This document shows positions 20,650-38,357 of a DNA stretch of 64,000 bases, piece by piece. Each line of letters begins with the position of its first letter. Position 1 is the first letter of the stretch. This DNA comes from Solimonas sp. SE-A11 (GTDB lineage Bacteria; Pseudomonadota; Gammaproteobacteria; Nevskiales; Nevskiaceae), in the NCBI RefSeq assembly GCF_030345715.1, contig NZ_JAUASX010000001.1:310001-374000 (forward strand), in the 5' to 3' direction. The translations under genes and the position numbers were made by a program. The notes below the pieces were generated by a model, which was given only the letters and a program-made list of their open reading frames with translations, had not been told where the DNA came from and did no database searches.

Positions 20650-21207
20650 TCAACGCGCGGGCGCCGAGCGGTCCTGGTCGCTTTCGTCGCGCGGACGCGG
20701 CGCGTTCTCGAAGATGCGCGCCACCAGCGACAGGAAGTGCACGCCCATGTCGACCTCTTCGGGCGTCATGTAGTCGATGGCCCAGCGCATCAGCGACTGG
20801 CCGTTGGTGACCATCTGCAGCATGAAGCGCTCGCCCTTGGGCGTGAGCTTGATCAGCTTCTCGCGGCCCGAGTCGGGATCTTCCATGATCTGGAGCAGGC
20901 CCAGCGGCGGCTTGGACATGGCCCGTAGCGCCTTGGAGACCGAGCTGCTGGTGATCTCGAACCAGTCCATCATCGCCTTCTCGACGAACTTGCGGCGCAT
21001 CAGCTTGCCGTCCACGCCCTGCGAGCGGATCAGCCACATGATCACGGTCTGGTGGCGGTTCAGCGCCTTGCCGGAACGCAGCGTGTCCTCGATCGTCATG
21101 CCCACCGTGTAATGGATGGGATAGAACAGCTCCAGCAGTTCGTGCGGCCCGTTCAGGTGCGGGATGCGGCGGACTTCGGTGGTCTTTGAAACGCCTTTCT
21201 TGTTCAC
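20650..21207 (-). CDS. MarR-family transcriptional regulator
   Basis: A 185-aa winged-helix regulator. The recognition region is DWFEITSSSVSKALRAMSKPPLGLL, and the wing is DPDSGREKLIKLTPKGERF, both MarR-like. The N-terminal 40 residues and C-terminal helices give the dimer interface. It is divergent from the aldehyde dehydrogenase with a low-GC, palindrome-bearing intergenic region between them, so it most likely controls itself and that gene. Related half-sites upstream of the P450 and TonB-receptor operons make it the prime candidate regulator of the whole block (inference). Confidence 0.85.
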   Translation of the reverse strand: MNKKGVSKTTEVRRIPHLNGPHELLELFYPIHYTVGMTIEDTLRSGKALNRHQTVIMWLIRSQGVDGKLMRRKFVEKAMMDWFEITSSSVSKALRAMSKPPLGLLQIMEDPDSGREKLIKLTPKGERFMLQMVTNGQSLMRWAIDYMTPEEVDMGVHFLSLVARIFENAPRPRDESDQDRSAPAR

Positions 21208-21326
21208 GGTGCTCGGTTCAGGGCAGGAGGTCTTGTCTTCGCGGCGAGGCTATACGAAGCCGGCCGCTGGCGGCGGAACTGTTTATAGCCTGAAACATAG
21301 TAACTTGGAAAACAATATAAAAAAAT

Positions 21327-21350
21327 AATTATGTCTTGACGGACATAATT
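21327..21350. promoter_or_regulatory. 9-bp palindromic operator overlapping a possible -35
   Basis: AATTATGTC and GACATAATT are perfect inverted arms around TTGACG, which could serve as a -35 element for the aldehyde dehydrogenase gene. The region is strikingly AT-rich against its surroundings. The half-site ATTATGTC resembles ATTGTGTC at 22929. Confidence 0.7.
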
Positions 21351-21423
21351 CACAAAAGCACACTCTCGCGCCGCCTGCCGGGTCCCCGGCGGGCGCTTTA
21401 TCCATGGCGCGGAGGGTTGGGCG

Positions 21424-22875
21424 ATGCACGGTGACGGCAAGGCGGTATCGGTGGTCGGGGCGGGGACGAATCTGGCGAAACTCCTGCAGGTCCAGCGGGC
21501 GGCCCATGCGGCGGACCCCTTTCCCACGGCGGAGCAGCGCATCGACCGCCTGCGCCGGCTGCTGGCCGCGCTGGAGAGCCACGAGCAGCGCATTGTCGAG
21601 GCCCTGAACGCCGACTTCGGCTACCGCTCGCCGCACCAGACCTGGTTCGCCGAGGTGGTCACCACCGCCAAGCCGCTACGCCTGGCCATCGCGCAGCTGC
21701 GGCGCTGGATGCGGCCCGAGCGCCGCAGCACCGGTTTGCCCTTCAACCTGCTGGGCGCGCGTGCCGAGGTGCACTACCAGCCGCTGGGCGTGGTCGGCGT
21801 GATCAGCCCCTGGAACGTGCCGGTGAACCTGGCGGTGGCACCGCTGGCGGGCGTCCTGGCGGCCGGCAACCGCGTGATGATGAAGCCCTCCGAGGCCACG
21901 CCCGCCACCGCGGAGCTGCTGCAGCAGATGATCGCCTCGGCCTTCGATCCGGCGGAGCTGACGGTAGCCACAGGCGGCGTGGAGGTAGGCCGCGAGTTCA
22001 GCGCGCTGCCCTTCGACCACCTGCTGTACACCGGCGGCGAGGCCGTGGCCAAGCACATCATGCGCGCGGCCTCGGATCACCTCACGCCGCTGACGCTGGA
22101 GCTGGGCGGCAAGTCGCCGACGCTGATCGGCGAGGGCGCCGACCTGCAGCTGGCGGCGCGCCGCATCGCCTTCGGCAAGGTGTTCAATGCCGGCCAGGTC
22201 TGCCTGGCGCCGGACTACGTGCTGGTACCCAATGCGCGCAAGCGCGAGCTGGTCGACGCGCTGATCGAGGCCTTCAAGGGCATGCTGCCCGAGGCCTCCG
22301 GCAGCCGCGACTTCGTCGCCGCGATCAACGCCCGCCATGCCGACCGCCTGCGCGGCTACGTGCTGGAGGCGCGCGCCTCGGGTGCCGAGGTGATCGAACT
22401 GGAGTGGACCGGCCGCAGCAGCGCGCCGGGCGCGATCATGGTGCCGCTGACCCTGCTGGTGGAGCCCTCGCCGATGCTGGCGGTAATGCGCGAGGAGATT
22501 TTCGGGCCGCTGCTGCCGATCGTGGGCTACGACCGCTTCGAGGATGCGCTGGCGATGATCAACGCCAAGGATCGCCCACTGGCGCTGTACTACTTCGGCG
22601 ACGACCGCGCGCAGATCCAGCAGGTGCTGACGCGCACCGTCTCCGGCGGCGTCACGCTCAACGACGTGATCATGCACTACACCATGGACGACCTGCCCTT
22701 CGGCGGGGTCGGCGCCAGCGGCATGGGCGCCTATCACGGCCGTGACGGCTTCCGGCGCTTCTCGCATGCGCGCGCCGTCTACACGCAGAGCCGCTTCGAC
22801 ATCGGCGGCATGCTGCGACCGCCCTACGGGCCGCGCTTCGAGCGCATCGCCCGAGTGCTGCAGAAGCATGGCTGA
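21424..22875 (+). CDS. Coniferyl-aldehyde-dehydrogenase-like ALDH
   Basis: A 483-aa NAD(P)-dependent aldehyde dehydrogenase. The oxyanion/cofactor region is VISPWNVPVNLAVAPLAGVL, the general-base Glu is in LELGGKSP, and the nucleophile Cys is in FNAGQVCLAPDYV. The latter fits the coniferyl aldehyde dehydrogenase subgroup, as does the C-terminal FGGVGASGMGAYHGRDGF. It would oxidise a hydrophobic aldehyde to the acid, a logical step before CoA activation by the ligase at 26253. Regulation by the divergent MarR is likely. The start is followed by a weakly conserved 15-residue lead, so a slightly later start is possible. Confidence 0.9.
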   Translation: MHGDGKAVSVVGAGTNLAKLLQVQRAAHAADPFPTAEQRIDRLRRLLAALESHEQRIVEALNADFGYRSPHQTWFAEVVTTAKPLRLAIAQLRRWMRPERRSTGLPFNLLGARAEVHYQPLGVVGVISPWNVPVNLAVAPLAGVLAAGNRVMMKPSEATPATAELLQQMIASAFDPAELTVATGGVEVGREFSALPFDHLLYTGGEAVAKHIMRAASDHLTPLTLELGGKSPTLIGEGADLQLAARRIAFGKVFNAGQVCLAPDYVLVPNARKRELVDALIEAFKGMLPEASGSRDFVAAINARHADRLRGYVLEARASGAEVIELEWTGRSSAPGAIMVPLTLLVEPSPMLAVMREEIFGPLLPIVGYDRFEDALAMINAKDRPLALYYFGDDRAQIQQVLTRTVSGGVTLNDVIMHYTMDDLPFGGVGASGMGAYHGRDGFRRFSHARAVYTQSRFDIGGMLRPPYGPRFERIARVLQKHG

Positions 22876-22928
22876 TCCCGTCTCCATGACCTGACCCGAC
22901 AGGCCCGCCGCTGGCCACGTGCGGGCTT

Positions 22929-22966
22929 ATTGTGTCCTTGACACAATAGTGTCCAAAAGACACAAT
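22929..22966 (+). promoter_or_regulatory. Tandem palindromic operator/promoter of the P450 operon
   Basis: Two inverted repeats abut: ATTGTGTC-CTT-GACACAAT (22929-22947), then GTGTC-CAAAA-GACAC (22949-22963). TTGACA at 22938 is a perfect -35, and CACAAT at 22961 is a weak -10 at 17 bp spacing, so a bound repressor would cover the promoter. The segment GTCCAAAAGACACAAT (22951-22966) recurs with one change at 28104. Confidence 0.75.
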
Positions 22967-23006
22967 CAACCAATAATCACATTCAAAGTGCGAGTGAGGA
23001 AACACC

Positions 23007-24272: not shown

Positions 24273-25082
24273 ATGTCGCTGCAACTGACGCGCAACGGCG
24301 CCGTGGCCGAGATCCTGATGGACCGGGCCGAGCGCATGAACGCGCTCGACACCGCTTTCTGGAGCGAGCTGCCGCGCCTGCTCGACGAGGTGGATGCCGA
24401 CCCCTCGATCCGCGTGCTGCTGCTGCAGGGCAGCGGCAAGCACTTCAGCGCCGGCATGGACCTGGACTTCTTCCCGGCGATCCGTGAGCAGGAGAACGGT
24501 GAACCCGGCCGCTACCGCGACTGGATCCGCCGCAAGGTGCTGGCCCTGCAGGCGGCGCTGACGCGGCTCGAGACCCTGCGCGTGCCGGTGATCGCGGTGA
24601 CCCAGGGCGCCTGCATCGGCGGCGCCCTGGACCTGGCCTGCTGCACCAACCTGCGCTACGCCACGGCCGATGCCTATTTCCGCATCCACGAGATCAACAT
24701 CGGGATGATGGCCGACCTCGGCGTGTTGCAGCGCCTGCCACGACTGCTGCCGGCGGCATTGGTGCAGGAGCTGGCCTTGACCGGCCGGCCGATGAACGCC
24801 GCGGAGGCCTTGCAGCGCGGCTTCGTCAACGCGGTATCCGACAGCCACGAGCAGGCGCTGCAACTGGCGCGCGAGACTGCGGCGCGCATCGCCGCGCTGT
24901 CGCCGCTGGCAGTGGCCGGCACCAAGGCGGCGCTGAACCACGCCCGTGATCACAGCGTGGCCGACGGCCTGGAGTTCGCCAGCCTGTGGAATGCCGCCAT
25001 GTTCGTGTCGGAGGACGTGCCGCTGGCGCTGGCGGCACAGAAGCATCGCGGCGCCGCGCAATTCCAGGACCTGCTGCCCTGA
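24273..25082 (+). CDS. Enoyl-CoA hydratase/isomerase, dienoyl-CoA isomerase-like
   Basis: A 269-aa crotonase-fold protein. The oxyanion segments are GKHFSAGMDLDFF and GACIGGALDLACC. The segment RIHEINIGMMADLGVLQRLP places a Glu and an Asp where delta3,5-delta2,4-dienoyl-CoA isomerase (ECH1) has its catalytic acids, so double-bond isomerisation is likelier than hydration. It would act in beta-oxidation of an unsaturated side chain or an opened ring. It has a strong AAGGAG site and lies within the P450 operon. Confidence 0.88.
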   Translation: MSLQLTRNGAVAEILMDRAERMNALDTAFWSELPRLLDEVDADPSIRVLLLQGSGKHFSAGMDLDFFPAIREQENGEPGRYRDWIRRKVLALQAALTRLETLRVPVIAVTQGACIGGALDLACCTNLRYATADAYFRIHEINIGMMADLGVLQRLPRLLPAALVQELALTGRPMNAAEALQRGFVNAVSDSHEQALQLARETAARIAALSPLAVAGTKAALNHARDHSVADGLEFASLWNAAMFVSEDVPLALAAQKHRGAAQFQDLLP

Positions 25083-25148: not shown

Positions 25149-25457
25149 GTGAAGATTCATGTCATCGACCGGGGCGGCCGCGCCCATGAGCTGGAAGCCG
25201 ACGCCGGCGAGGCGCTGGTGAACCCGTTGAGCTTCGCCAATCTGGTGGAAGCAACCTGCGGCGGTGCCTGCTCCTGTGCCACCTGCCAGGTCTACGTCGA
25301 TCCCGCCTGGCTGGAGCGGCTGCCGCCGGCCGTGGGCGACGAGAGCCAGTTGCTGCCGGAGCTGCTGAACACGCAACCGAACAGCCGCCTGGCCTGCCAG
25401 GTGGTGATGAGCCCCGCGCTGGACGGCATCCGCCTGACCGTGGCGCCCGAACAGTAA
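25149..25457 (+). CDS. [2Fe-2S] ferredoxin, adrenodoxin/putidaredoxin type
   Basis: A 102-aa ferredoxin with cluster ligands Cys37, Cys43, Cys46 and Cys83 in CGGACSCATCQVYVD and RLACQV, the putidaredoxin spacing, plus an extra Cys41 between the first two ligands. It carries electrons from an FAD reductase (probably the one at 37113) to the P450. The GTG start fits KIHVIDRGG, the usual N-terminal strand. It lies between the isomerase and a SnoaL-like gene in the same operon. Confidence 0.93.
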   Translation: MKIHVIDRGGRAHELEADAGEALVNPLSFANLVEATCGGACSCATCQVYVDPAWLERLPPAVGDESQLLPELLNTQPNSRLACQVVMSPALDGIRLTVAPEQ

Positions 25458-25481: not shown

Positions 25482-25880
25482 ATGAGCATGAACCCTGTCG
25501 AGGCGACCCAGGAAATCTTCACGCGCTTCGGCGCCAAGAACGTGCCGGGCATCGTCGAGCTGCTGGACGACGACATCCGCATCGAGTTCTACGGGCCGTC
25601 GGTGATCCCCTATGCCGGCGACTATCGCGGCAAGGAGGAGGCGCGCCGCTTCTTCGAGACGGTGCTCAGTTCAGTGGACATCCACCAGTTCGACGCCGAG
25701 CAGATGCTGCGCGACGGCGACATGGTGACGGTGACCGGCGTGCTGCACCTGACCGCGCGCGCCACCGGCCGCGACATCCGCTCCGACTTCGCCCACGTCA
25801 TCACCGTGCGAGACGGCAAGTGGCTGCGCTTCCGCGACTTCATGAACACGGCCGTGGCCGTGGCCGCCTTCACCCGCTGA
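25482..25880 (+). CDS. SnoaL-like (NTF2-fold) protein
   Basis: A 132-aa single-domain NTF2-like protein with an N-terminal helix (EATQEIFTRFGAKNVPGIVELL), FYGPSVIPYAGDYRGKEEAR, and C-terminal strands ending WLRFRDFMNTAVAVAAF. Members include delta5-3-ketosteroid isomerase, limonene epoxide hydrolase and polyketide cyclases. The catalytic residues that would pick among them are not certain here. In the P450 operon it may isomerise or hydrolyse the oxidised product. The ribosome site GAGGAGACG is strong. Confidence 0.85.
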   Translation: MSMNPVEATQEIFTRFGAKNVPGIVELLDDDIRIEFYGPSVIPYAGDYRGKEEARRFFETVLSSVDIHQFDAEQMLRDGDMVTVTGVLHLTARATGRDIRSDFAHVITVRDGKWLRFRDFMNTAVAVAAFTR

Positions 25881-25891: not shown

Positions 25892-26266
25892 ATGTCGATC
25901 GAGCGGCACATCGCCGCGGGTGACCTCGGCCTGTTCCTGGCCCTGGCGGTGCCGGGGCTGGGACCCTGGCTGGTCGAGGCCCTGCTGCAGCTCAACGGCC
26001 TGCTGGGACTGCCGGGGCAGGGCGGCATGCATGGGCTGTCGCCGCTGCTGCTGGGCCTGATGGGCCTGCTGGGTGCCGGCTTCGCTTGGGCGCGGCTGAA
26101 TGCGCCGGCGGGCCTGCTGCGCAAGCCCGCCATGCTGGTGAAGGCCGCCGCGATGCTGCTGTTCGTGCTGGCGGTGCTGGGCGGCGCGCCGGCCATCCTG
26201 CTGCTGCTGGCGGCGGCCGATGCTGTGGCTGCGGTGCTGCTAGCGGTGGCCCGTGACCCGCGCTGA
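25892..26266 (+). CDS. Small four-helix membrane protein
   Basis: A 124-aa hydrophobic protein with about four TM helices (near residues 10-28, 45-62, 78-96, 98-117), rich in Leu, Ala and Gly. I do not recognise the family. The ATG is 9 bases after the SnoaL stop, and the gene overlaps the acyl-CoA synthetase start by 14 bases, so it is part of the operon. It could help the hydrophobic substrate cross or dwell in the inner membrane; this is inference. Confidence 0.7.
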   Translation: MSIERHIAAGDLGLFLALAVPGLGPWLVEALLQLNGLLGLPGQGGMHGLSPLLLGLMGLLGAGFAWARLNAPAGLLRKPAMLVKAAAMLLFVLAVLGGAPAILLLLAAADAVAAVLLAVARDPR

Positions 26267-28064
26267 AGCCGCCCCGCCGCCGCAGGCGCGGCAGGAATCG
26301 CCGCACACGGTGATCGAGGCCTTCACCGCCACCGCGCGGCGCCTGGCCTCGCGGCCGGCGCTGCGGCACAAATGCGACGGACGCTGGCACACGCTCAGCT
26401 TCCGCGAGTACCACGCCGAAGTGATGACCGTGGCGCGCGCCTTCATCCGCCTGGGCCTGCAGCCTGGGCAGACCGTCTCGATCCTGGGCGGCAACAGCCC
26501 CCAGTGGCTGATCGCGGATCTCGCGGCCATTGCCGCGGGTGGCGTGGCGGCGGGCATCTACGCCACCTCCAGTGCCGAGCAGTGCCAGTACATTGCCGGG
26601 CACAGCGGCTCCGCCATCGTCGTGGTGGAGGACTCGGCGCAACTGGCCAAGCTGCTGGCCGTGCGCGCCACGTTGCCGGAACTGCGGGCCATCGTGCTGA
26701 TGAAGGGCGAGAGCGACGTGGCCGGCGTCCACGGCTGGGAGCAGTTGTACGAGCTCGCCGAAGGCGTGCCGGAGGCACAGCTGGAACAGCGGCTCGCCAC
26801 GCAGCGCCCCGGCGACCTGGCCACGCTGATATACACCTCCGGGACCACCGGTACGCCCAAGGCGGTGATGCTGTCGCATGCCAACCTGCTATGGACCGCG
26901 CGCGGCGCCGCACTGCTGCTCGGCACGCGGGAAGGGCAGGACTGGCTCAGCTACCTGCCTTTGTCGCATGTCGCCGAGCAGATGCTGACGTTGCATGTGC
27001 CGCTGCTCGTCGGCAGTTGCGTATGGTTCGCCGAGAGCCTGGAGCGCCTGCCGGCCAACCTGCCCGAGGTGCGGCCCCACAGCTTCCTGGGAGTGCCGCG
27101 CGTCTGGGAGAAGATCCAGGCGCGCATTCTCGGCCTGGAGGCGCAGGCTCCGTTCGCGCGCCGCCAGCTGATGCGCTGGGCGCGCGGCGTCGGCCGCGCC
27201 GCGGCATGGGCGCAGGAGCGCGGCGGCCAGCCGCCGTTGCTGCTGCCGCTGGCGGATCGCCTGGTGCTGTCGAAGCTGCGCGCCGCCCTGGGCCTGGATC
27301 GCGCGCATCACTGCGCCACCGGCGCCGCGCCCATCGCGCCCGAGACCGCCGCCTTCTTCGCCAGCCTGGGCCTGCCGCTCTACGAGATCTATGGGCAAAG
27401 CGAGTCCACCGGTGCCTGCACCATGGGCGGACCCGGGCGCCACCGCAGCGGCTCCGTCGGCCGGGTCTGGGACGGGCTGCAACTGCGCCTGGATACCGAC
27501 GGCGAGATCCTGCTGCGCGGACCCTGCGTGTTCATGGGCTACCTGAACAACGAGCGGGCCTCGCGGGAGGCGCGCGATGACTCCGGCTGGCTGCGTACCG
27601 GCGACATCGGCCGCATCGACGACGAGGGCTTCCTCTACATCGTCGATCGTAAGAAGGAACTGATCATCACCGCCGGCGGCGAGAACATCTCGCCGGCGCA
27701 CGTCGAAGGCGAGATGAAGTCCATTCCCGCCGTCGGCCAGGTCTGCGTGATCGGCGACCGGCGCAAGTACCTGGTCGCGTTGTTCACGCTGGACCCCCTG
27801 CTGCTGCCGGCGGTGGCGCAGGCGGCTGGCAGCCTGGCCACCACGGCGACCGAGGCGGCACAGTGTCCTGCCTTCACGCGCTGGTTCGGGGCGCAGGTGG
27901 CCCAGGCCAACCGCCGCTTGGCGCGCGTGCAGACCATCAAGAACTGGACGCTGCTGCCGGAGCCGTTCTCGCTGCAGAACGGCGAGCTGACGCCGACCAT
28001 GAAGACGCGCCGTGCGGTGATCCTGCAGCGGCATGCCGCCGCCATCGAGGCCATGTACGACTGA
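26253..28064 (+). CDS. Long-chain acyl-CoA synthetase-type AMP-forming ligase
   Basis: A 603-aa ANL-family ligase. The P-loop-like YTSGTTGTPKAVMLSH is at about 192-207, followed by YGQSESTGAC and the hinge/C-domain GWLRTGDIG, DRKKELIITAGGENISP. It converts a carboxylic acid to its CoA thioester via the acyl-adenylate. The layout is like FadD15/long-chain ligases and not the aryl-CoA type. GTG start overlapping the membrane-protein gene. It is last in the P450 operon and feeds the isomerase, thiolase and other CoA enzymes nearby. Confidence 0.93.
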   Translation: MTRAEAAPPPQARQESPHTVIEAFTATARRLASRPALRHKCDGRWHTLSFREYHAEVMTVARAFIRLGLQPGQTVSILGGNSPQWLIADLAAIAAGGVAAGIYATSSAEQCQYIAGHSGSAIVVVEDSAQLAKLLAVRATLPELRAIVLMKGESDVAGVHGWEQLYELAEGVPEAQLEQRLATQRPGDLATLIYTSGTTGTPKAVMLSHANLLWTARGAALLLGTREGQDWLSYLPLSHVAEQMLTLHVPLLVGSCVWFAESLERLPANLPEVRPHSFLGVPRVWEKIQARILGLEAQAPFARRQLMRWARGVGRAAAWAQERGGQPPLLLPLADRLVLSKLRAALGLDRAHHCATGAAPIAPETAAFFASLGLPLYEIYGQSESTGACTMGGPGRHRSGSVGRVWDGLQLRLDTDGEILLRGPCVFMGYLNNERASREARDDSGWLRTGDIGRIDDEGFLYIVDRKKELIITAGGENISPAHVEGEMKSIPAVGQVCVIGDRRKYLVALFTLDPLLLPAVAQAAGSLATTATEAAQCPAFTRWFGAQVAQANRRLARVQTIKNWTLLPEPFSLQNGELTPTMKTRRAVILQRHAAAIEAMYD

Positions 28065-28103: not shown

Positions 28104-28155
28104 GTCCAAATGACACAATATTAATGTTGACACCATTAAATACTGGATATAATAT
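28104..28155 (+). promoter_or_regulatory. Operator and promoter of the TonB-receptor operon
   Basis: GTCCAAATGACACAAT at 28104 matches the P450-operon element GTCCAAAAGACACAAT in 15 of 16 positions. TTGACA at 28127 with TATAAT at 28148 (15 bp) or TAATAT at 28150 (17 bp) forms a good promoter just downstream. The area is AT-rich within a GC-rich genome. Confidence 0.72.
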
Positions 28156-28318: not shown

Positions 28319-28534
28319 CGTACGCGCCGCCGGCCCGTAGGCCTCCGCGGCATCGCTGAAAAGCCGTTCGAGTAACGAGGGGGCAGTCGGCCCCGGCCGA
28401 TCCTGCCGGGGCAATTGCGCGCGCGATTCGTGCCGCGGCCCCGCGGGAGACCGGGCCAGCCGCGCTGCGTGGATCAAGTGGAGACGCCCTGTGCCGCAAC
28501 GAGGCGAGGGCGCGTGACCGATATGGAAGGTGCC

Positions 28535-31168: not shown

Positions 31169-31194
31169 AGATGAATCAGCAAGGAAAATCGAGC

Positions 31195-31944
31195 ATGAAA
31201 CTCCATGGCAAGCGTCACGCGGCGATGCTGCTGGCCGCCCTGCTGGCACCGGTGGCCTATGCGGCCTCACTGCCGGAGGTGATCAAGGCAGGCGAGAGCT
31301 TCATGGTGGCCCAGGCCGACTCCCAGAAGCGCGTTGACGCCCTGGCCGAACAAGGCCGAGACCTGTCGAACGACTACCGCACGACCCTGCGCGAAAGCGA
31401 AGGCCTGAAGCTGTACCTGCAGCAGCTGCGTGCGCAGCTCAAGAGCCAGGAAGAGGAAATGGCCGTGATCCGGCAGGAGTCTTCCGAACTGGACCGCACC
31501 AACATCGAGATCCTGCCGCTGATGCAGCGCATGCTGGCCTCCATGGACCAGTTCGTGCAGCTGGACGTGCCCTTCCTGAAGGAAGAGCGCGCCGCCCGCG
31601 TCGCCCGCCTGAACGACATGATGCCGCGCGCCGACGTCACCGTGTCGGAAAAGTACCGCCGCATCGTCGAGGCCTACCAGATCGAGATGGAATACGGCCG
31701 CACCATCGAAGCCTACCGCGGCAAGCTGGGCGACAAGGAAGTCGACTTCCTGCGCGTCGGCCGCGTCGGCCTGTACTACCAGACCCCGGACGGCAAGCAG
31801 ACCGGCTACTGGGACCGCGACAAGAAGGACTGGACCTCTGACGGCAGCTACGCCGAAGGCGTCACCGAGGGATTGAAGGTCGCCAAGAAGCAGACCTCCC
31901 CGAACCTGCTGATCGTCCCCGTCCAGGCCGCCGCGAGCCAATAA
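31195..31944 (+). CDS. DUF3450 periplasmic coiled-coil protein
   Basis: About 249 aa, with a signal peptide at 1-22 (...LLAPVAYAAS), a long coiled coil (residues 25-110), then LDVPFLKEERAARVARLNDMM and YYQTPDGKQTGYWDRDKKDW, which are DUF3450 signatures. In Vibrio and Shewanella-type TonB2 systems a DUF3450 gene precedes ttpC, and its product is thought to be an accessory component of the complex. ATG 31195 behind AAGGAAAA is preferred over the ATG at 31171. It is 3 bases from the next gene. Confidence 0.9.
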   Translation: MKLHGKRHAAMLLAALLAPVAYAASLPEVIKAGESFMVAQADSQKRVDALAEQGRDLSNDYRTTLRESEGLKLYLQQLRAQLKSQEEEMAVIRQESSELDRTNIEILPLMQRMLASMDQFVQLDVPFLKEERAARVARLNDMMPRADVTVSEKYRRIVEAYQIEMEYGRTIEAYRGKLGDKEVDFLRVGRVGLYYQTPDGKQTGYWDRDKKDWTSDGSYAEGVTEGLKVAKKQTSPNLLIVPVQAAASQ

Positions 31945-31947
31945 GCC

Positions 31948-33330
31948 ATGAAACTGAAGAACATCACGCTGTCCCTCGCCCTGGCCCTGGGTATCGTCGG
32001 CCTACCCGTAGCCGCCCAGGCCCCCGCCCAGGCGACCGCCAAGAGCCTGGACGAACTGCTCGAACAGGTCCGCACCGCCGACGCCCGCGACGCCAAGGCC
32101 AACGCCGAACGCGAAGCCCGCTTCGCCGCCGCCCGCGAACAGCAGCGCAGCCTGCTGGCTGAAGCCAACGCCGAAAAGACCGCCCTGGAAAACCAGGCCG
32201 CCGCCCTCGCCAAGCAGTTCGAAGACAACGACCGCCTGATTGGCGAACTGACCCAGGCCCGCGACATCAAGGCCGGCAACCTCGGCGAACTGTTCGGCGT
32301 CATGCGCCAGACCGCCGGCGACTTCGCCACCGTCGCCCGCAATTCGATGCTGACGGCCCAGTTCCCGGACCGCGTCGCCCAGATCGACCGCCTGGCGCAG
32401 ACCAAGACCATGCCGCCGATGGAAGACCTGAACCGCTTCTGGTTCGAGATGCAGCGCGAAATGACCGAAGGCGGCAAGGTCGTCCGCATCCAGGCCAAGG
32501 TCACCGCTCCCGACGGATCACAAGCCGACAAGACCGTCCTGCGCGTTGGCCCCTTCGTCGCCGTATCGGACGGCCAGTTCCTGGAATACACCACCGGCGC
32601 CAACGCCTTCAGCACCCCGCCCAAGCAGCCGCCTTCGAAGTTCGGCGGCATCGCCGAAGATTTTGAAGAGGAAGGCTCCGGCTACCACGCCATGGTGGTC
32701 GACCCCACCCGCGGCGTCCTTCTGAACCTGTTCTCCCAGCGCCCCGACATGGTCCAGCGCATCGTCGAAGGCGAATCGGTCAACTGGCTGATCCTGGCCA
32801 TCGGCCTGATCGGCACCATCATCGCCATCTACCAGTTCGGCTACCTGACCCTGACCAGCACCAAGGTCAACCGCCAGCTCGCCAACCTCAACAACCTGTC
32901 CACCGACAACCCGCTGGGCCGCGTCCTGCTCGCCTTCAAGGGCGGCAACGCCCCGAGCAGCAATGAAGACTCCGAAGTCATCGAACTGCGCGTCTCAGAA
33001 GCCGTGCTCAAGGAACTGCCCCCGCTGGAACGTGGCCAGTCCTTCCTCAAGCTGGGCGTCGCCGCTGGTCCGCTGTTGGGCCTGGTCGGTACCGTCGTCG
33101 GCATGATCCACACCTTCCAGGTCATCACCGAGTCCGGCTCGGGTGATCCCAAGCTGATGGCCGCCGGTATCTCCATGGCCATGATCGCCACCCTGTTGGG
33201 CCTGGGCATCGCCATCCCGCTGCTGTTCGCCAACTCTGCCCTGCAGAGCCGCTCCAAGCGCCTGATCCAGATCCTCGACGAACAGAGCACCGGCCTGCTG
33301 GCCGAGCTGATCGAGAAGCGTCGTGCATAG
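31948..33330 (+). CDS. TtpC-type MotA/TolQ/ExbB proton-channel protein
   Basis: A 460-aa protein. It has a signal peptide (1-24), a periplasmic coiled-coil half (about 30-110), a beta-rich section, a first TM at about 277-300 (WLILAIGLIGTIIAIYQFGYL), then a MotA/TolQ/ExbB domain with GVAAGPLLGLVGTVVGMIHTF and a last TM (ISMAMIATLLGLGIAIPLLF). This large ExbB relative is TtpC, the extra channel protein of TonB2 systems. Codon use favours GAA and GTC over GAG and GTG, unlike the neighbouring genes. A 254-bp gap with 32-bp inverted repeats, unique in this otherwise tight operon, follows the stop. Confidence 0.92.
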   Translation: MKLKNITLSLALALGIVGLPVAAQAPAQATAKSLDELLEQVRTADARDAKANAEREARFAAAREQQRSLLAEANAEKTALENQAAALAKQFEDNDRLIGELTQARDIKAGNLGELFGVMRQTAGDFATVARNSMLTAQFPDRVAQIDRLAQTKTMPPMEDLNRFWFEMQREMTEGGKVVRIQAKVTAPDGSQADKTVLRVGPFVAVSDGQFLEYTTGANAFSTPPKQPPSKFGGIAEDFEEEGSGYHAMVVDPTRGVLLNLFSQRPDMVQRIVEGESVNWLILAIGLIGTIIAIYQFGYLTLTSTKVNRQLANLNNLSTDNPLGRVLLAFKGGNAPSSNEDSEVIELRVSEAVLKELPPLERGQSFLKLGVAAGPLLGLVGTVVGMIHTFQVITESGSGDPKLMAAGISMAMIATLLGLGIAIPLLFANSALQSRSKRLIQILDEQSTGLLAELIEKRRA

Positions 33331-33596
33331 GACCTGTCATGGCATCCCCCGATCGCAGCGCCGGGGGTCACTTGGGCGCCGTGCGGCAAGCGGGCAATGG
33401 AGCGCGTTGAAACGGTGCCGGACATCTTCGGCATCGCAGGGCGCCCAAGCGGCCCCGGCCCTGCGGGTTATCCCCGCCGCGGGCGCCAGGCGTTGTTGCT
33501 CGTCGGTTGTTTGGGCCCGCCAAACGTCCTCCTCGCGCCTAGCCTGGCACCCACGGCGGGGCAACGCTGCGACCGGGGAATGCCATGACAGGTCCT
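33329..33596. repeat. Element with 32-bp inverted terminal repeats between ttpC and exbB
   Basis: Left arm 33329-33360 (begins AGGACCTGTCATGGCATCCC) and right arm 33565-33596 (ends CCATGACAGGTCCT) are inverted with 30 of 32 matches. The left arm begins at the ttpC stop codon, and the right arm contains the exbB ATG (33585). Inside are secondary palindromes such as CTTGGGCGCC/GGCGCCCAAG and GTTTGG/CCAAAC. No gene is convincing inside. I see no clear target-site duplication. Confidence 0.8.
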
Positions 33597-34115
33597 GAGA
33601 TCCTGCTCGCTCCGTTGCACGCGGTCAGCCAGCTGACCATCGCCGGCGGGCCGTTCGTGATGTGGATCCTGGTGGCCGGCGTCCTGATGTGGACGCTGAT
33701 CTTCGAGCGCCTGTGGTTCTTCCGGACCCATTTCCCCGGCATGACCCAGCGCCTGCTGGGTCAGTGGCAGGGGCGTCCGGGACACCAGTCCTGGATGTCG
33801 CACCAGATCCGCACCGCCATGATCTCGCGGCTCAACGGCGCCATGTCCGAGAACATGCCGGTGCTGAAAGTCCTGATCCCCATGTGCCCGCTGCTGGGCC
33901 TGGTGGGGACCGTGCACGGCATGCTCGAGGTGTTCGACTCCATGTCGATCCTGGGCTCGGCCGACGCACGCACCATGGCCAGCGGCGTGTCCAAGGCCAT
34001 GAACTGCACGATGACGGGCCTGGCGGTGAGCGTCACCGGTATGTACCCGGTGTTCTATTTCCAGTCGAAGATCGCCAAGCAGACCGAACTGCTGGCCGAC
34101 CGCTTCACCTTCTAG
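33585..34115 (+). CDS. exbB: ExbB-type MotA/TolQ proton-channel protein
   Basis: A 176-aa protein with three TM helices (about 20-42, 92-112, 132-155), the ExbB signature LIPMCPLLGLVGTVHGMLEVF and the second channel helix MASGVSKAMNCTMTGLAVSV. It forms the pentameric proton channel that, with ExbD, energises TonB. It is shorter than TtpC and is the second channel protein of the TonB2-type operon. The start lies inside the right arm of the 32-bp inverted repeat; GGGGA upstream is the only ribosome-site candidate. Confidence 0.93.
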   Translation: MTGPEILLAPLHAVSQLTIAGGPFVMWILVAGVLMWTLIFERLWFFRTHFPGMTQRLLGQWQGRPGHQSWMSHQIRTAMISRLNGAMSENMPVLKVLIPMCPLLGLVGTVHGMLEVFDSMSILGSADARTMASGVSKAMNCTMTGLAVSVTGMYPVFYFQSKIAKQTELLADRFTF

Positions 34116-34128
34116 GAATTCCTTCGCC

Positions 34129-34554
34129 ATGGGCCTGCGCCACCGCCGCCAGCACGTCGAGCACGACGAGGAGGCCATCGACCTCGCGCCGATGCTCGAC
34201 TTCGTGCTGAACCTGCTGATCTTCTTCATCATCACCGCCGTCTTCGTCAAAGAGGTGGGGCTCTCACTCAACACCCCGCCTCCCTCTCCGCCGAACCAGA
34301 AGCAGCAGGAAGAGGACAACAGCACCCTGTTCATCGCCGTGCACAAGAACGGCGACATCTCGATCGACCAGAGATTGGTGGACCCGGCCGCAGTCCGCGC
34401 CAACGTGGAACGTTTCAGGGGCGAGAAGCCGGACGGTCCGGTGATCGTGGTGGCCAACACCAAGGCCCCCACGGGCATGGTGGTCAAGGCCATGGACCAG
34501 GCCCGGGCGGGTGGGGCGATGAACGTCATGCTGCAGCCGACCACGAGCAAATAA
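34129..34554 (+). CDS. exbD: ExbD biopolymer transport protein (copy 1)
   Basis: A 141-aa protein with a single TM preceded by IDLAPMLDFVLNLLIFFII, which carries the conserved proton-carrying Asp, then a periplasmic domain with the PVIVVANTKAPTGMVVKAMDQAR pattern of ExbD/TolR. It partners ExbB in the proton channel. It lies 13 bases downstream of exbB and is followed by a second exbD with an almost identical TM but different periplasmic part. Confidence 0.93.
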   Translation: MGLRHRRQHVEHDEEAIDLAPMLDFVLNLLIFFIITAVFVKEVGLSLNTPPPSPPNQKQQEEDNSTLFIAVHKNGDISIDQRLVDPAAVRANVERFRGEKPDGPVIVVANTKAPTGMVVKAMDQARAGGAMNVMLQPTTSK

Positions 34555-34579
34555 CCAGAGCGAGCCTGAGGAGACACCC

Positions 34580-34987
34580 ATGCAAGCCCGCCGACACGCA
34601 ACCGACGACGGACGTCACGGCATCGACCTGGCGCCGATGCTGGATTTCGTACTCAACCTTCTGATCTTCTTCATCATCATCACCAGCTTCGTCAAGCAGG
34701 CCGGCGTCAAGGTGGACAAGGAGCAGGCCGAGACGGCCGAGTCCAAGGCCAGCGGCAACATCCTGATCGCGGTGCGTCCCAACGGCGAGGTCTGGATGGA
34801 TCGCAAGAAGGTGACGATGCCGGAGGTGCGTGCCCTGGTGGAACGCATGCATGCCGAGCGCCCCGAGGACACGGTGGTGATCCTGGCCGACAAGGCCTCC
34901 GAGAGCGGAATCATGGCCCAGGTGATGGACCAGGTGCGGGCCGGCGGCGTGGATAGCGTGTCGGTGGCGACCAAGGGAGCCGAGTGA
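34580..34987 (+). CDS. exbD: ExbD biopolymer transport protein (copy 2)
   Basis: A 135-aa ExbD. The TM segment HGIDLAPMLDFVLNLLIFFI repeats copy 1 including the channel Asp, while the periplasmic domain (ILIAVRPNGEVWMDRKKVTM then TVVILADKASESGIMAQVMD) differs. Two ExbDs could form a heterodimer in the channel. The ATG has a GAGGAGAC site. The stop overlaps the tonB start by one base. Confidence 0.93.
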   Translation: MQARRHATDDGRHGIDLAPMLDFVLNLLIFFIIITSFVKQAGVKVDKEQAETAESKASGNILIAVRPNGEVWMDRKKVTMPEVRALVERMHAERPEDTVVILADKASESGIMAQVMDQVRAGGVDSVSVATKGAE

Positions 34988-35700
34988 TGGCCAGTTCCAC
35001 CTCCACGGGTGATCGCGTGCCGCTGTTCGTGGTGGACCGCAACAGCGGCGTCCCGAACAACCCGCCGATCGGTGAGCAGCCGCAGTTGAGCCCCTTGCGC
35101 TTCATCGCACCCCTGGGCCTGGCCTGCGTGTCCATGGTCGGACTGTTCTGGCTGCTCTATGCCCTGATCCATTCGACCACGGGCGCCGTGCCCAACGGCG
35201 AGATCCTGCCGACGGTGGATTTCCTGCGCCTGGCCAAGAACTTCGAGATCGAGAGCCGCGAGCGCAAGCCGCCGCCGGAGATGCCGGATCGCCCCGAGGC
35301 GCCGCCGGAGGTGCCGGTGCAGACCACGCAGATCCAGGGGCCGACCAACACCAACGTCGCCATCAACATGAAGCTGGAGAACTCCACGCAGGTGAAGTCC
35401 AGTTTTGGCTTGTCATCGACGGATGGTGAGTACCTGCCGATCGTGAAGGTGGCGCCGATGTACCCGGCCCGTGCGCAGAGCCAGGGCATCGAGGGCTGGG
35501 TGCTGCTGAGCTTCACGGTGACGGAGGCGGGCGGGGTGACCGACCCGAAGGTGATCGAGTCGCAGCCGCCGGGGGTGTTCGACGAGGCGGCCAAGAAGGC
35601 CGTGCTCAAGTTCAAGTACAAGCCGCGTGTCGAAAGTGGCAAGCCGATCGCCGTGCCCAATGTCCAGCACTTGATCCGCTTCGAGCTCGACAAGAGATGA
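34987..35700 (+). CDS. tonB: TonB energy-transducing protein
   Basis: A 237-aa protein with a cytoplasmic lead of about 37 residues, a TM at about 38-61 (FIAPLGLACVSMVGLFWLLYAL), a short Pro-rich linker (RKPPPEMPDRPEAPPEVPVQ), and a C-terminal TonB domain from about 150 (YPARAQSQGIEGWVLLSFTV ... VFDEAAKKAVLKFKYKP). The linker is short against E. coli TonB, as in TonB2 proteins that depend on TtpC. ATG 34987 overlaps the exbD stop (TGATG); GTG 34984 is an alternative. Confidence 0.94.
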   Translation: MASSTSTGDRVPLFVVDRNSGVPNNPPIGEQPQLSPLRFIAPLGLACVSMVGLFWLLYALIHSTTGAVPNGEILPTVDFLRLAKNFEIESRERKPPPEMPDRPEAPPEVPVQTTQIQGPTNTNVAINMKLENSTQVKSSFGLSSTDGEYLPIVKVAPMYPARAQSQGIEGWVLLSFTVTEAGGVTDPKVIESQPPGVFDEAAKKAVLKFKYKPRVESGKPIAVPNVQHLIRFELDKR

Positions 35701-36998
35701 GGTGCCCGGTGAACGTGAAGAACCTGATCCTGTGCGGCACCCTCAGCGTGCTGCTCGCCTTCGGCGTCATCGTGGCGGACGCCAAGGAGAAGTCAAAGGG
35801 AAAGCCGGCGCCTCCGCCCAGCAAGCAGACCGGCGTGATCCGCGCCGAGACCTACAAGAAGATGGAGGTTGCGCAGAAGGCCTTCGAGGCCAAGGACTAC
35901 AAGGGGGCGCTGTCCTCCCTGGACGGCCTGCGCGCCGGCGAAGCCAAGCTCAACGACTATGAGCGCGCCACGCTGTACAACCTCTACGCCGCCACCTGGT
36001 ATGCGCTGGACAACACGCCGAAGGCGCTGGAGTCCTATGCCTTGGTATTGAAGCAGCCGAACCTGCCGGAGGGCCTGCGTGACAGCAGCCTCTACGCCAT
36101 GGCGCAGCTGCACTTCATCGCCGAGGATTATCCCAAGGCGATCCAGACCGTGAACCAGTGGCTGGTCGTGGTGGCCGAGCCCAGCCCGGATGCCTATGCG
36201 CTGCTGGCGCAGGCCTACTACCAGACGCAGAAGTATCCGGAGGCCGAGAAGGCCCTGACCACCTCGATGAAGATCTCGCGCGAGCGCGGCGTGGTGCCGA
36301 AGGAAGCCGCCCTGGCGCTGCTGCGAGCGATCTATTACGAGCGCAAGGAATACGCCAAGGCGGCCAAGGTGCTGGAGATCCTGGTGGCCAGCCATCCGGA
36401 CAAGGGCAGCTACTGGCAGCAGCTGGCCGGCATGCGCGGCCTGATGGACCAGCAGCGCCAGCAGCTGGCCCTGATGCATGCGGCCTATCGCAATCGTTTG
36501 ATCACCGCGGAGACTGACCTGTTGAACCTGGCGCGGCTGTACATGGTGCAGGAGGTCCCCTACGCGGCCGTGCGCCTGATGGCGGGCGGCATGAAGAACA
36601 AGAGCATCAAGGCCTCTCCGGAAAACCTGCAGCTGTTCGCGCAGGCCCTGGCCCTCTCTCAGGAATACCGCCAGCAGATCCCTGTACTGAAGACGCTCGC
36701 CGAGATGACCGGCGAGGCCAAGCACTACATCTACCTCGGCCAGGCCTACAACGAGACCGGCGATTGGAAGAGCGCCGCCGGTGCCTTCCGCACGGCGCTC
36801 AAGGCCAAGGGCCTGGACAAGCCGGCCGACGCGCACATGCAGCTGGGCACCGCACTGTTCAACGACAAGCAGTTCGCAGAAGCACGCACGCAGTTCGTGG
36901 CGGCGGCGCAGTCGCCGGCACTGGCCGATGCCGCCGGCAACTGGATCAAGTTCGTCGACCAGGAGATCGCGCGCCGCGAAGCGGTCCGCGCCATGTAG
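35697..36998 (+). CDS. TPR-repeat periplasmic protein of the TonB2-type operon
   Basis: A 433-aa protein with a signal peptide at about 1-29 (...VIVADAKE), a basic Lys/Pro stretch, then at least eight tetratricopeptide-like helical repeats (for example AYYQTQKYPEAEKALTTSM, GQAYNETGDWKSAAGAF and GTALFNDKQFAEARTQF). A TPR protein closes TonB2 loci in many gammaproteobacteria and is thought to assist the complex. ATGA overlap with tonB couples translation. A strong terminator follows, ending the operon. Confidence 0.92.
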   Translation: MRCPVNVKNLILCGTLSVLLAFGVIVADAKEKSKGKPAPPPSKQTGVIRAETYKKMEVAQKAFEAKDYKGALSSLDGLRAGEAKLNDYERATLYNLYAATWYALDNTPKALESYALVLKQPNLPEGLRDSSLYAMAQLHFIAEDYPKAIQTVNQWLVVVAEPSPDAYALLAQAYYQTQKYPEAEKALTTSMKISRERGVVPKEAALALLRAIYYERKEYAKAAKVLEILVASHPDKGSYWQQLAGMRGLMDQQRQQLALMHAAYRNRLITAETDLLNLARLYMVQEVPYAAVRLMAGGMKNKSIKASPENLQLFAQALALSQEYRQQIPVLKTLAEMTGEAKHYIYLGQAYNETGDWKSAAGAFRTALKAKGLDKPADAHMQLGTALFNDKQFAEARTQFVAAAQSPALADAAGNWIKFVDQEIARREAVRAM

Positions 36999-37056
36999 TC
37001 CTCGTCTTCCTCCTCCTCCACCACATCTCTCCCTCGTCAAAGTTGTGGAGGACTTC

Positions 37057-37090
37057 AACCCCTTCCTCCCCGCGAAGGGGTTTCTTTTTT
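37057..37090 (+). terminator. Rho-independent terminator of the TonB operon
   Basis: AACCCCTTC and GAAGGGGTT pair around an 8-base loop and are followed by TTCTTTTTT. Confidence 0.93.
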
Positions 37091-37112
37091 AGGGGCCGGC
37101 AACGGCCCGTCC

Positions 37113-38357
37113 ATGCGGAATGCTGAAATGACGGAGCAGAGCGACATCGTGGTGATCGGCGCCGGGCAGGCGGGCGCGGAGCTGTGCGTGGAGCTGCGGC
37201 GGCGCGGCCATGCGGGCCGCATCGTGCTGCTGGGCGACGAGGCCTGGCCGCCGTACAAGCGCCCGCCCTTGTCCAAGGCCTACCTGGCCGGCACGGCGGA
37301 CGAGGCGGCGCTCCATGCCGTGCCGCCTGCACAACTGCAGCGGCATGCCATCGAGTTCATCGGCGGCGCACGGGTCGTTCACCTGCACCGACAGCACCGT
37401 GAGGTGGAACTGGCCGATGGCCGCCGCATCGCCTACCGCGGCCTGGCCCTGACCACCGGCGGACGCGCGCGCCCGCTGCCGGTCCCGGGCGGCGACCTGC
37501 GCGGGGTGCAGGTGCTGCGCAGCATGGATGACGCGCGTGCCCTGCGCCCGGCGCTTCGAGAAGGCAGCCGGCTGGTCATCATCGGCGGCGGCTTCATCGG
37601 GCTGGAGGCGGCCGCGGCGGCGATCAAGGCCGGAGCCAGGGTCACGCTGCTGGAAGGCCTGGAGCGCGTGCTGGCACGCGTGACCGCGCCCCAGATTTCG
37701 GACTTCTTCGAGCGCGCGCATCGCGAGGCGGGGGTGGATCTGGTCACCGGGGCGCAGGTCGCGGCAGTGCTGGGCCGGGACGCGGTGGAGGCGGTGCAAC
37801 TGGCGGACGGCCGGCTGATTGCGGCGGATCACGTGCTAGTGGGCATCGGCCTGCTGCCCAATGTCGATCTGGCGCTGCAGGCCGGCCTGGAAGTGGCCGA
37901 CGGCATCGTGGTGGACGAATGCGCCCGCAGCTCGGATCCGCAGATCGTCGCCGCGGGAGATTGCGCCAACCATCCCAGTGCCTTCGCCGGGCGCCGGCTG
38001 CGCCTGGAGTCGGTGCAGAACGCGCTGGAGCAGGCCCGCACGGCCGCGGCGACGCTGCTCGGTGCCCAGGAGCCCTACCGCACGGTGCCGTGGTTCTGGT
38101 CGGACCAATACGACCTGAAGCTGCAGATGGTCGGCCTGTCGCAAGGCCATGATCGCCTGGTGCTTCGCGGGGATCTGCAGCTGGCGCGGGACTTCTCCGC
38201 GTTCTACCTGCGCGAGGGCCGACTGATCGCGGCCGACGTGGTGAATCGCCCGCAGGAATTCATGCTGGCGAAGAAGCTGGTGGCCGCGGCGGCGACGCTC
38301 GATCCGGCCCTGCTGGCCGACGCCAGCGTGCCGCTGAAATCCCTGCTGCCGTCCTGA
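37113..38357 (+). CDS. FAD-dependent ferredoxin reductase (putidaredoxin-reductase type)
   Basis: A 414-aa pyridine-nucleotide-disulfide-fold reductase without redox cysteines. The FAD motif VVIGAGQAGAEL is at about 10-21, the NAD(P) motif VIIGGGFIGLEAAAAAIKAG at about 151, and the third motif is SDPQIVAAGDCANHP. KRPPLSKAYLAG is typical of ferredoxin/rubredoxin reductases. It passes electrons from NAD(P)H to a [2Fe-2S] ferredoxin and so completes a three-part P450 system with the products at 23007 and 25149. The start is either ATG 37113 or ATG 37128. Its own promoter must lie after the terminator. Confidence 0.92.
   Translation: MRNAEMTEQSDIVVIGAGQAGAELCVELRRRGHAGRIVLLGDEAWPPYKRPPLSKAYLAGTADEAALHAVPPAQLQRHAIEFIGGARVVHLHRQHREVELADGRRIAYRGLALTTGGRARPLPVPGGDLRGVQVLRSMDDARALRPALREGSRLVIIGGGFIGLEAAAAAIKAGARVTLLEGLERVLARVTAPQISDFFERAHREAGVDLVTGAQVAAVLGRDAVEAVQLADGRLIAADHVLVGIGLLPNVDLALQAGLEVADGIVVDECARSSDPQIVAAGDCANHPSAFAGRRLRLESVQNALEQARTAAATLLGAQEPYRTVPWFWSDQYDLKLQMVGLSQGHDRLVLRGDLQLARDFSAFYLREGRLIAADVVNRPQEFMLAKKLVAAAATLDPALLADASVPLKSLLPS

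Follow-up and report, generated by a model that had tools for sequence, protein, structure and literature searches.

What does a TonB-dependent receptor with its own TonB complex do beside a cytochrome P450 and other genes for the breakdown of organic compounds? The question is raised by a locus of Solimonas sp. SE-A11 (Nevskiaceae), analysed here within a stretch of 64,000 nucleotides (the window). To our knowledge, the uptake of large hydrophobic compounds by Gram-negative bacteria is poorly known, and only a handful of receptors, EdcT and DdvT among them, have been tied to organic substrates. With a probability of about 0.65, we consider the locus to be a MarR-controlled uptake-and-oxidation system for a single hydrophobic organic compound. 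Receptor, energy complex, regulator and first enzyme can be tested jointly here, in genera for which named strains exist (Solimonas fluminis, Sinimarinibacterium flocculans, Zhongshania).

In the proposed model, the receptor would carry the compound, presumably large as well as hydrophobic, across the outer membrane, powered by the TonB3-like complex of the same operon. The cytoplasmic P450 would oxidise it with electrons delivered via the ferredoxin and ferredoxin reductase, and the SnoaL-like protein may act on the P450 product or shape P450 binding. Aldehyde dehydrogenase (ALDH) would yield an acid for activation by the CoA ligase, and the dienoyl-CoA-isomerase-like enzyme would shift double bonds for beta-oxidation. 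Release of MarR from the ALDH and P450 promoters, and perhaps from that of the receptor, may be triggered by the compound or a product. We infer the direction of flow, the chemistry and the substrate of this model.

Gene content of the locus

All genes named in the first-pass annotation are present at the positions listed in Table 1, and Pfam backs each of them except the small membrane protein.

Table 1. Features of the locus, in window positions, with strand and supporting matches
Feature	Position	Strand	Support
MarR-type regulator	20650..21207	-	Pfam HTH_27 3.4e-8; transcribed divergently from operon
Predicted MarR-type operator AATTATGTC-TTGACG-GACATAATT	21327..21350	.	1 of 3 full sites genome-wide
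Aldehyde dehydrogenase (ALDH)	21424..22875	+	Pfam Aldedh 5e-82
Predicted double MarR-type operator overlapping promoter-like site (TTGACA at 22938)	22928..22967	.	
Cytochrome P450	23007..24251	+	Pfam p450 9.9e-25; top PDB chain 9lw0 1e-128
Enoyl-CoA hydratase/isomerase, dienoyl-CoA isomerase-like	24273..25082	+	Pfam ECH_1 5.7e-42; 1dci 3.3e-49
[2Fe-2S] ferredoxin with additional Cys	25149..25457	+	Pfam Fer2 3.2e-5
SnoaL-like (NTF2-fold) protein, usual P450 partner	25482..25880	+	Pfam SnoaL_2 1.5e-17; model pLDDT 97.4
Small helical membrane protein, without known family	25892..26266	+	no Pfam match
AMP-forming acyl-CoA ligase	26253..28064	+	Pfam AMP-binding 1.2e-72
Suggestive operator half-site GTCCAAATGACACAAT ahead of receptor promoter	28104..28119	+	
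Sigma-70-like promoter ahead of receptor	28127..28155	+	
TonB-dependent receptor (likely start 28535)	28415..31168	+	Pfam barrel 9.5e-32, plug 1.6e-14
DUF3450 = TtpB	31156..31944	+	Pfam DUF3450 1.1e-78; true start maybe 31171 or 31195
TtpC (long MotA/ExbB-type protein)	31948..33330	+	Pfam MotA_ExbB 3.4e-27
ExbB	33585..34115	+	Pfam MotA_ExbB 8.2e-19
ExbD copy 1	34129..34554	+	Pfam ExbD 1.4e-21
ExbD copy 2	34580..34987	+	Pfam ExbD 6.3e-23
TonB	34984..35700	+	Pfam TonB_C 4e-17
TPR protein = TtpD	35697..36998	+	Pfam TPR_2 1.5e-12
Terminator-like hairpin with T tail	37057..37082	+	
FAD ferredoxin reductase	37113..38357	+	Pfam Pyr_redox_2 1.9e-63, Reductase_C 1.1e-34

The order ttpB, ttpC, exbB, exbD, tonB, ttpD is matched by Pfam from 31156 to 36998, with one exbD extra; the two ExbD copies are 39.7% identical over 131 residues. 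By gene layout the receptor gene heads the TonB operon: no terminator-like site is listed between the receptor and the DUF3450 gene, whose frame opens ahead of the receptor stop. Judging by the signal peptide, the receptor frame listed from 28415 probably starts at Met 28535. The same six component kinds constitute TonB2 and TonB3 of Vibrio vulnificus (ttpB-ttpC-exbB-exbD-tonB-ttpD; PMC6957404), whereas the present locus has a second exbD, P450 catabolism neighbours and no Fur-like box seen, and the Oceanococcus locus has an additional ttpC. In V. vulnificus TonB3, an outer-membrane receptor gene stands at the operon start and the system is apparently not iron-regulated (PMC6957404), so that the initial premise that TonB2 systems are usually for iron proved too narrow.

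The P450 carries the I-helix acid-alcohol pair (AGAETT 251) and the Cys ligand (FGHGIHHCMG 355). In class I bacterial P450 systems, the P450, a [2Fe-2S] ferredoxin and an FAD reductase are encoded close together; here, both partner genes (Fer2; Pyr_redox_2 with Reductase_C) are present, electron transfer between their products being predicted, and the locus adds the receptor, the TonB complex and a SnoaL-like partner, which in one Nevskiaceae genus is fused to the P450. The claim that all redox partners are present stands at the level of genes, although the reductase sits past a terminator-like hairpin that separates it from the TonB operon; the hairpin pattern alone is weak, since 9 such sites were found against 8.7 expected in shuffles. 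The reductase gene lies within the P450 operon in Oceanococcus and in genome G062. The extra cysteine reported for the ferredoxin is real (CGGACSCATC) and is shared by 15 of the 17 related ferredoxins that were examined.

Among solved P450 structures the closest, 9lw0, is entered just as 'Cytochrome P450'; a literature search on this PDB code found no paper, and a plasmid collection, searched for a named P450 relative, gave no match at 1e-60. In the ECH_1 protein, Asp, Glu and Asp align with the three acids of rat dienoyl-CoA isomerase 1dci, which are catalytic in that enzyme, and the score against NCBIfam PRK06142 (291.3 bits) is below the cut-off of 308. The CoA ligase had been counted as a member of the module; the gene is indeed here, but was not seen at the equivalent spot in the Sinimarinibacterium and Oceanococcus loci, and at its present position it is a Solimonas addition among the loci compared.

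Receptor, P450 and TonB complex across genomes

In a survey of 85 genomes of the order Nevskiales, an orthologous P450 (at least 66% identity) was found in 8 and an orthologous receptor (at least 71%) in 7, all within the 8. Receptor and P450 lie in one gene run in all seven, one of which (G062) is split over two contigs with the break inside the P450. The co-occurrence anticipated at first pass was observed in every receptor holder among these genomes, and the clustering recurs in other families: five Zhongshania loci hold the receptor-P450 run without the ECH gene. Since the two operons are neighbours across families, the suggestion that they might never be found together in relatives fails. 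Among 369 genomes drawn from the class, the receptor search returned the own genome alone at 1e-180; with so sparse a draw, this indicates no more than the rarity of the receptor.

The TonB complex is complete behind the receptor in G000, G052, G066 and G067. In G041 and G050, the start of DUF3450 follows the receptor, with contigs overlapping by 95 and 123 bases, and in G062 a truncated TtpC is found there. In a TtpC tree of 63 rows, the complexes behind the receptor fall in two distant clades. Because TtpC derives from two distant lineages while the receptor-P450 adjacency is unchanged, the TonB complex appears to have been exchanged; because receptor and P450 stay together even where this happened, they probably handle one oily compound. 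The complex is not the fixed member that it had been taken for, given the two lineages and the finding of no TonB complex in about 6 kb behind five Zhongshania receptors. The latter case, together with G068, in which P450 and SnoaL are kept and no receptor was found at E 1e-100, indicates that neither link is strict. The exchange also provides a natural experiment on whether the receptor needs a private TonB.

If the receptor-TonB and P450 operons were unrelated neighbours, common descent or block transfer would be what holds them together. The seven genomes include three Solimonas and two of one genus and so do not represent seven independent cases, and Zhongshania, which belongs to another family, may have gained the block by transfer. 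Yet the gene order is kept although P450 identity fell to 54-69%, the adjacency is retained with a different TonB lineage behind the receptor, and receptor and P450 share an unbroken run in Oceanococcus and Zhongshania. We regard unrelated neighbourhood as very improbable.

A second copy of the TonB complex lies on contig C16 of the own genome, with a 92% identical TtpC. No receptor relative was found at 1e-5 within the 20 kb examined around this copy, and its neighbours, from their N-termini, read like branched-chain keto-acid dehydrogenase genes.

Control of the locus and the iron alternative

Palindromes that are predicted MarR-type operators sit at the ALDH and P450 promoters. The full operator pattern, with a spacer range picked after the sites were seen, occurs three times in 4.94 Mb, twice at the present locus, and the reversed control gives 0. 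The third site (C14:49909), which is flanked by a 146-aa gene and an HTH_3 regulator, was not counted as connected with the locus. The motif GACAYAA occurs about as often as expected (6 times against 5.2). In other loci, MarR relatives are divergent and stand beside ALDH or P450.

At the receptor promoter, the MarR-type half-site is only suggestive. It was missed by a consensus scan with 3 mismatches, and its matrix score was reached by 25 of 2000 gap shuffles (12 with 19 stricter training sites) and, for the AT-rich part, by 281 of 2000 (146 with the stricter set). The 15-mer half-site pattern was built after both sites had been seen, and its reversed control gives 1 match. Conservation within Solimonas is high over the gap ahead of the receptor as a whole, and the sigma-70-like promoter is also present in G050 and G052. 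From these sequence elements we infer that MarR binds the predicted operators and that the receptor is under the same regulator.

Alternatively, the cargo of receptor and TonB complex might be iron or heme for the P450 and ferredoxin rather than the organic substrate. The nearest receptor models are indeed those of siderophore and heme receptors, under the NCBIfam cut-off, and Vibrio TonB2 is iron-regulated (PMC6957404). In a plain consensus scan of four promoters, however, no Fur-like box rose above background (best score 11/19 at promoters, including the receptor's, against 13/19 elsewhere in the window), the annotated genes of the cluster include no further iron-uptake gene, and the receptor promoter has the suggestive MarR-type half-site instead. 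We regard iron supply as improbable.

Uptake of an organic compound has parallels elsewhere. DdvT with TonB1-ExbB1-ExbD1-ExbD2 of Sphingobium SYK-6 likewise combines TonB-driven organic uptake with two exbD genes in the operon, whereas the abstract of that study names no DUF3450, TtpC or TPR part and has one complex serving many aromatics (PMC8599685). In a pheR mutant, TonB/ExbBD and receptors were raised together with phenanthrene catabolism (PMC13273656). The edc cluster of Novosphingobium tardaugens also unites a P450 (EdcA) and a TonB-dependent receptor (EdcT), deletion of which slows growth on estradiol (PMC7793797). Unlike the present locus, edc has a TetR regulator, an extradiol dioxygenase and an indolepyruvate oxidoreductase; the term 'SnoaL' is absent from the main text of that article, and its section 6 lists no TonB complex (PMC7793797).

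Candidate substrate and the SnoaL-like partner

A narrower form of the uptake-and-oxidation model takes the substrate to be a steroid, with a side-chain or ring oxidation module tied to the upstream cholesterol oxidase-like and SDR genes. The Chol_subst-bind oxidase (18799-20583) adjoins the locus and is retained by two further Solimonas, the own genome gives 4 KshA_C matches, the SnoaL fold is common to ketosteroid isomerase, and EdcA and EdcT set a precedent in estrogen degradation (PMC7793797). Against this, the stretches examined beside the Sinimarinibacterium, Oceanococcus and Zhongshania loci showed no such oxidase, and no extradiol dioxygenase or indolepyruvate oxidoreductase was detected among the 18-48 kb genes given to Pfam. 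KshA_C was rejected as a marker linking the locus to steroid rings because it is widespread (over cut-off in 48 of the 85 genomes) and has 0 matches in the P450 holders G062 (88% complete) and G068. A survey of steroid degraders makes no mention in its main text of Solimonas, Nevskia, Hyphomonas, Parvibaculum or Zhongshania (PMC4810484). A steroid is thus a possible substrate, if a doubtful one. Among the loci compared, the cholesterol oxidase is a Solimonas addition; it and the SDR were rejected as members of the unit, being found beside the locus in Solimonas only.

The association of SnoaL-like protein and P450 was absent from the first-pass interpretation. Of 80 named loci, 67 have a SnoaL-like gene close to the P450, and the pair occurs in Alphaproteobacteria, Gammaproteobacteria and Actinomycetota. 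In one Nevskiaceae genus (g6) the two are fused in all 7 of the 7 P450-holding genomes. Where SnoaL directly follows the P450 in non-actinobacterial loci, it is the more conserved of the two in 34 of 37.

The model of the SnoaL-like protein has an NTF2 fold (Foldseek 3fgy, 2.2e-10), with TM scores of 0.87 to KSI 7epn, 0.81 to TerC 6d34 and about 0.7-0.8 to limonene epoxide hydrolase (LEH) entries, at about 14-24% identity to these matches. H105, R118 and D119 are invariant in the alignment of SnoaL-like proteins (46 sequences for H105 and D119). The catalytic pair of SnoaL is His and Asp, and the LEH triad is Arg-Asp-Asp; the conserved set includes R118 and D119 and does not obviously yield this triad.

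Tentatively, and at somewhat below even odds, P450 and SnoaL-like protein may form one bifunctional catalyst, a P450-NTF2 fusion class not described before, in which the SnoaL domain would trap and convert an unstable P450 product. This catalyst would be coupled to a dedicated receptor in Solimonas, Oceanococcus and their kin, with the TonB complex exchanged between lineages and the adjacency kept. Among the titles and abstract openings returned by searches of a partial literature collection, no description of the P450-SnoaL fusion or of the present locus was seen; the receptor/TonB/P450 combination and the fusion look new, the component parts being of known kinds. The pair points to P450 chemistry that may require a second protein.

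The small membrane protein, first described as four-helix, is predicted to have five helical segments (mean pLDDT 86.3), and its model matched no PDB fold at E 0.001. In other loci, its relatives stand in line ahead of the receptor.

Gene order and the receptor-P450 core

All genes that the first-pass annotation listed for the 18-kb stretch are present, with Pfam support for each except the small membrane protein, which has no Pfam match in the window. The MarR regulator is on the minus strand and the remaining genes are on the plus strand, in the order aldehyde dehydrogenase (ALDH), P450, dienoyl-CoA-isomerase-like enoyl-CoA hydratase/isomerase (ECH), ferredoxin, SnoaL-like protein, small membrane protein and acyl-CoA ligase. 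A ~470-base gap containing a promoter-like site separates these from a second series: receptor, DUF3450, TtpC, ExbB, two ExbD, TonB and TPR. Receptor and DUF3450 genes abut with zero gap, and ferredoxin reductase is the last gene, 3' of a terminator-like hairpin.

Among 85 genomes of the order, a P450 of at least 66% identity (limit E 1e-60; next best, 56%) is found in eight: the window's own (G000), its congeners Solimonas fluminis (G050) and Solimonas sp. BWSM_106 (G052), Sinimarinibacterium flocculans (G041), G062, G066, Oceanococcus (G067) and a Salinisphaeraceae MAG (G068). A receptor of at least 71% identity (limit E 1e-100; next best, 47%) is found in seven, all within these eight, and receptor and P450 lie in a single gene run in 7/7, which are non-independent (three are Solimonas and two belong to one genus). 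The G062 run spans two contigs that break within the P450 gene, leaving it in two pieces. At the same limits neither gene was found in G051, a fourth genome of the window's genus; G068 keeps P450 and SnoaL, and no receptor was found in it at E 1e-100.

Five Zhongshania loci read MarR, then ALDH-P450-(ferredoxin, in four)-SnoaL-membrane protein-receptor, with receptors of 66–67% identity; ECH is without a match in these loci, as is TtpC in the ~6 kb behind the receptor. The proposed association of P450 and receptor is borne out in seven of the 85 genomes and in these five loci. The small membrane protein is kept between SnoaL and receptor from Solimonas through Zhongshania; G062 has only ~256 bases at the expected position. 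Ferredoxin reductase sits between ECH and ferredoxin in G066, G067 and G062. No acyl-CoA ligase was seen at the corresponding place in G041, G066, G067 and G062 contig C205, and the second G062 contig carries a 32% relative on the far side of MarR.

Features of the window and of related loci (L numbers)
Feature	Position	Remark
SDR	window 17601-18665	precedes cholesterol oxidase-type gene
Cholesterol oxidase-type flavoenzyme	window 18799-20583	Chol_subst-bind 3.7e-146; RR pair near N-terminus
Small membrane protein	window 25892-26266	without known family or fold
Receptor-TonB segment	window 28000-36000	relative to most of window, GC down to 0.647-0.654 and marked AT skew, 0.094-0.130
Terminator-like hairpin	37057-37082	after TPR gene, before ferredoxin reductase
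Epoxide hydrolase and two ECH genes	window 43897-47066	upstream of second P450
Second P450	window 47080-48264	
P450-SnoaL fusion frames	L018, L020, L021, L022, L023, L024, L025	seven genomes, one Nevskiaceae genus
Oceanococcus-type TonB complex	L036 1699-8717	two TtpC, two ExbD
Oceanococcus-type TonB complex	L039 7579-15829	two TtpC, two ExbD; gene read as OmpA-like between receptor and complex
P450 frame without heme-binding end	L069 9842-11260	Salinisphaeraceae MAG; continues into SnoaL
Additional Solimonas TonB complexes	L129 6030-13916; L133 5886-13579	beside ferredoxin reductase and SDR genes; neighbours include genes with N-termini reading like response regulator

TonB complexes behind the receptor

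Behind the receptor, four genomes (G000, G052, G066 and G067) have a complete TonB complex. In G066 and G067 it lies ~1.4 kb away and includes two TtpC; the intervening stretch of G067 carries a gene read as OmpA-like. TtpC starts directly after the receptor in G062 and is cut by the contig end, and the contigs of G041 and G050 end within DUF3450. Their 95 and 123 end bases are common to a small contig with the remaining complex parts; the joins are likely, short of certain because small contigs may be collapsed repeats.

In a midpoint-rooted tree of 63 TtpC proteins, the Solimonas copies group with their own paralogues in a 22-row Nevskiaceae-type clade (100/99), and a copy on contig C16 of the window's genome is 92% identical to the cluster TtpC. 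Those of G041, G062, G066 and G067 form part of another clade (100/98) across the midpoint root, and therefore two TonB lineages lie behind the same receptor-P450 core. As read from these sequences, the complex behind the receptor was exchanged between lineages. Further, an additional complex in G051 and G052 adjoins ferredoxin reductase and SDR genes.

Candidate pathway, substrate and control

From established family roles, the receptor and TonB complex would mediate TonB-driven uptake, the P450 with ferredoxin and reductase an oxidation step, the ALDH conversion of aldehyde to acid, the ligase CoA activation and the ECH a double-bond shift. The ECH has the three dienoyl-CoA isomerase acids, which suits an unsaturated acyl-CoA. 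A steroid is a possible substrate, in view of the cholesterol oxidase-like gene beside the cluster and four KshA_C matches in the window's genome; the presence of that gene there is, however, particular to Solimonas, and KshA_C is common in the order and was not found in G062 and G068. The cholesterol oxidase-type gene and SDR also occur in two other Solimonas. The second P450 region (43897-48264) is apparently a separate catabolic cluster.

The individual parts of the locus are of known kinds. Published accounts describe Vibrio vulnificus TonB3 (receptor-ttpB-ttpC-exbB-exbD-tonB-ttpD; PMC6957404), which has the same receptor-to-ttpD plan, and the edc cluster, which likewise pairs a P450 with a receptor, for a steroid (PMC7793797). 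They also describe PheR as controlling TonB components together with a catabolic cluster (PMC13273656), TonB-driven uptake of aromatics in SYK-6 (PMC8599685) and use of TonB for a carbon source in Teredinibacter (PMC10734418).

The MarR-ALDH gap holds a palindrome, AATTATGTC-TTGACG-GACATAATT, and the ALDH-P450 gap holds ATTGTGTC-CTT-GACACAAT plus AGTGTC-CAAAA-GACACAAT, overlapping a promoter-like site. Sinimarinibacterium, Nevskiaceae genus g6, Panacagrimonas and some of the alphaproteobacterial loci carry similar palindromes in the gap between MarR and the adjacent gene; in Parvibaculum-type loci the repeat looks different and is of a TTTAC type. The post hoc pattern TTRTGTC-N3-6-GACAYAA occurs three times in the 4.94-Mb genome, twice in the cluster (reversed control, 0). 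The receptor promoter has a candidate half-site, GTCCAAATGACACAAT, and GTCCNAAWGACAYAA, also defined post hoc, has two occurrences in the genome, one at the P450 promoter and one at the receptor promoter (reversed control, 1). A stricter consensus with three mismatches finds the P450 sites only (3 matches vs 0.66 expected; at least 3 in 8/100 shuffles).

Scored with a matrix built on 27 sites from relatives other than Solimonas, the P450 site ranks first in the 64 kb at 31.7 and the receptor site is fifth at 10.8; the top score outside the cluster is 5.8. Using a rebuilt matrix, the receptor-site score was reached by 25/2000 shuffles of the receptor gap and 281/2000 of its AT-rich part; a matrix from 19 stricter sites gave 12/2000 and 146/2000. 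GACAYAA is not in excess (6 found vs 5.2 expected), although all six lie in the ALDH, P450 and receptor promoters, and no Fur-like box stands out in a consensus scan of promoters. The receptor site is unchanged in G050 and G052, but the whole surrounding gap is conserved generally. Shared MarR control of the receptor and P450 operons is plausible.

The P450-SnoaL pair and its fusion

A P450-profile scan of named genomes kept 80 of 136 relatives. SnoaL follows the P450 by up to 200 bases in 53 of these 80 loci, within 1 kb in 4 and at 1.2–3.0 kb in 5. Another 5 loci have it upstream, and it was not seen in 13, two of which end at the P450. It is nearby in 68 of 79 P450 tree rows (the window, 75 of the 80 loci and 3 further loci; five were dropped as short or broken). 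Where SnoaL directly follows (57 loci), its identity to the window copy exceeds that of the P450 in 34/37 non-actinobacterial and 0/20 actinobacterial loci. The pair is retained in all 19 Mycobacteriaceae loci and in a single Patulibacter locus of three, with SnoaL identity of 40–44% and no MarR match.

We rate the P450-SnoaL fusion as the most novel element of the locus. The two form a single open frame in all seven g6 genomes with the P450 (G013, G018, G019, G020, G021, G022 and G028); the boundary lacks Met in 4/6 frames inspected, where internal GTG or TTG starts could still serve. In a quick P450 tree, the five fused rows included are split from the rest of the labelled rows by a single branch. 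Eleven SnoaL residues are invariant in 46 sequences (G38, I42, F57, V61, G86, H105, I107, F117, R118, D119, F120), and the predicted model (pLDDT 97.4) structurally matches NTF2-like proteins, ketosteroid isomerase, TerC and limonene epoxide hydrolase; an enzymatic role is plausible. The shortened P450-SnoaL frame of L069 reflects either a deletion or an assembly artefact.
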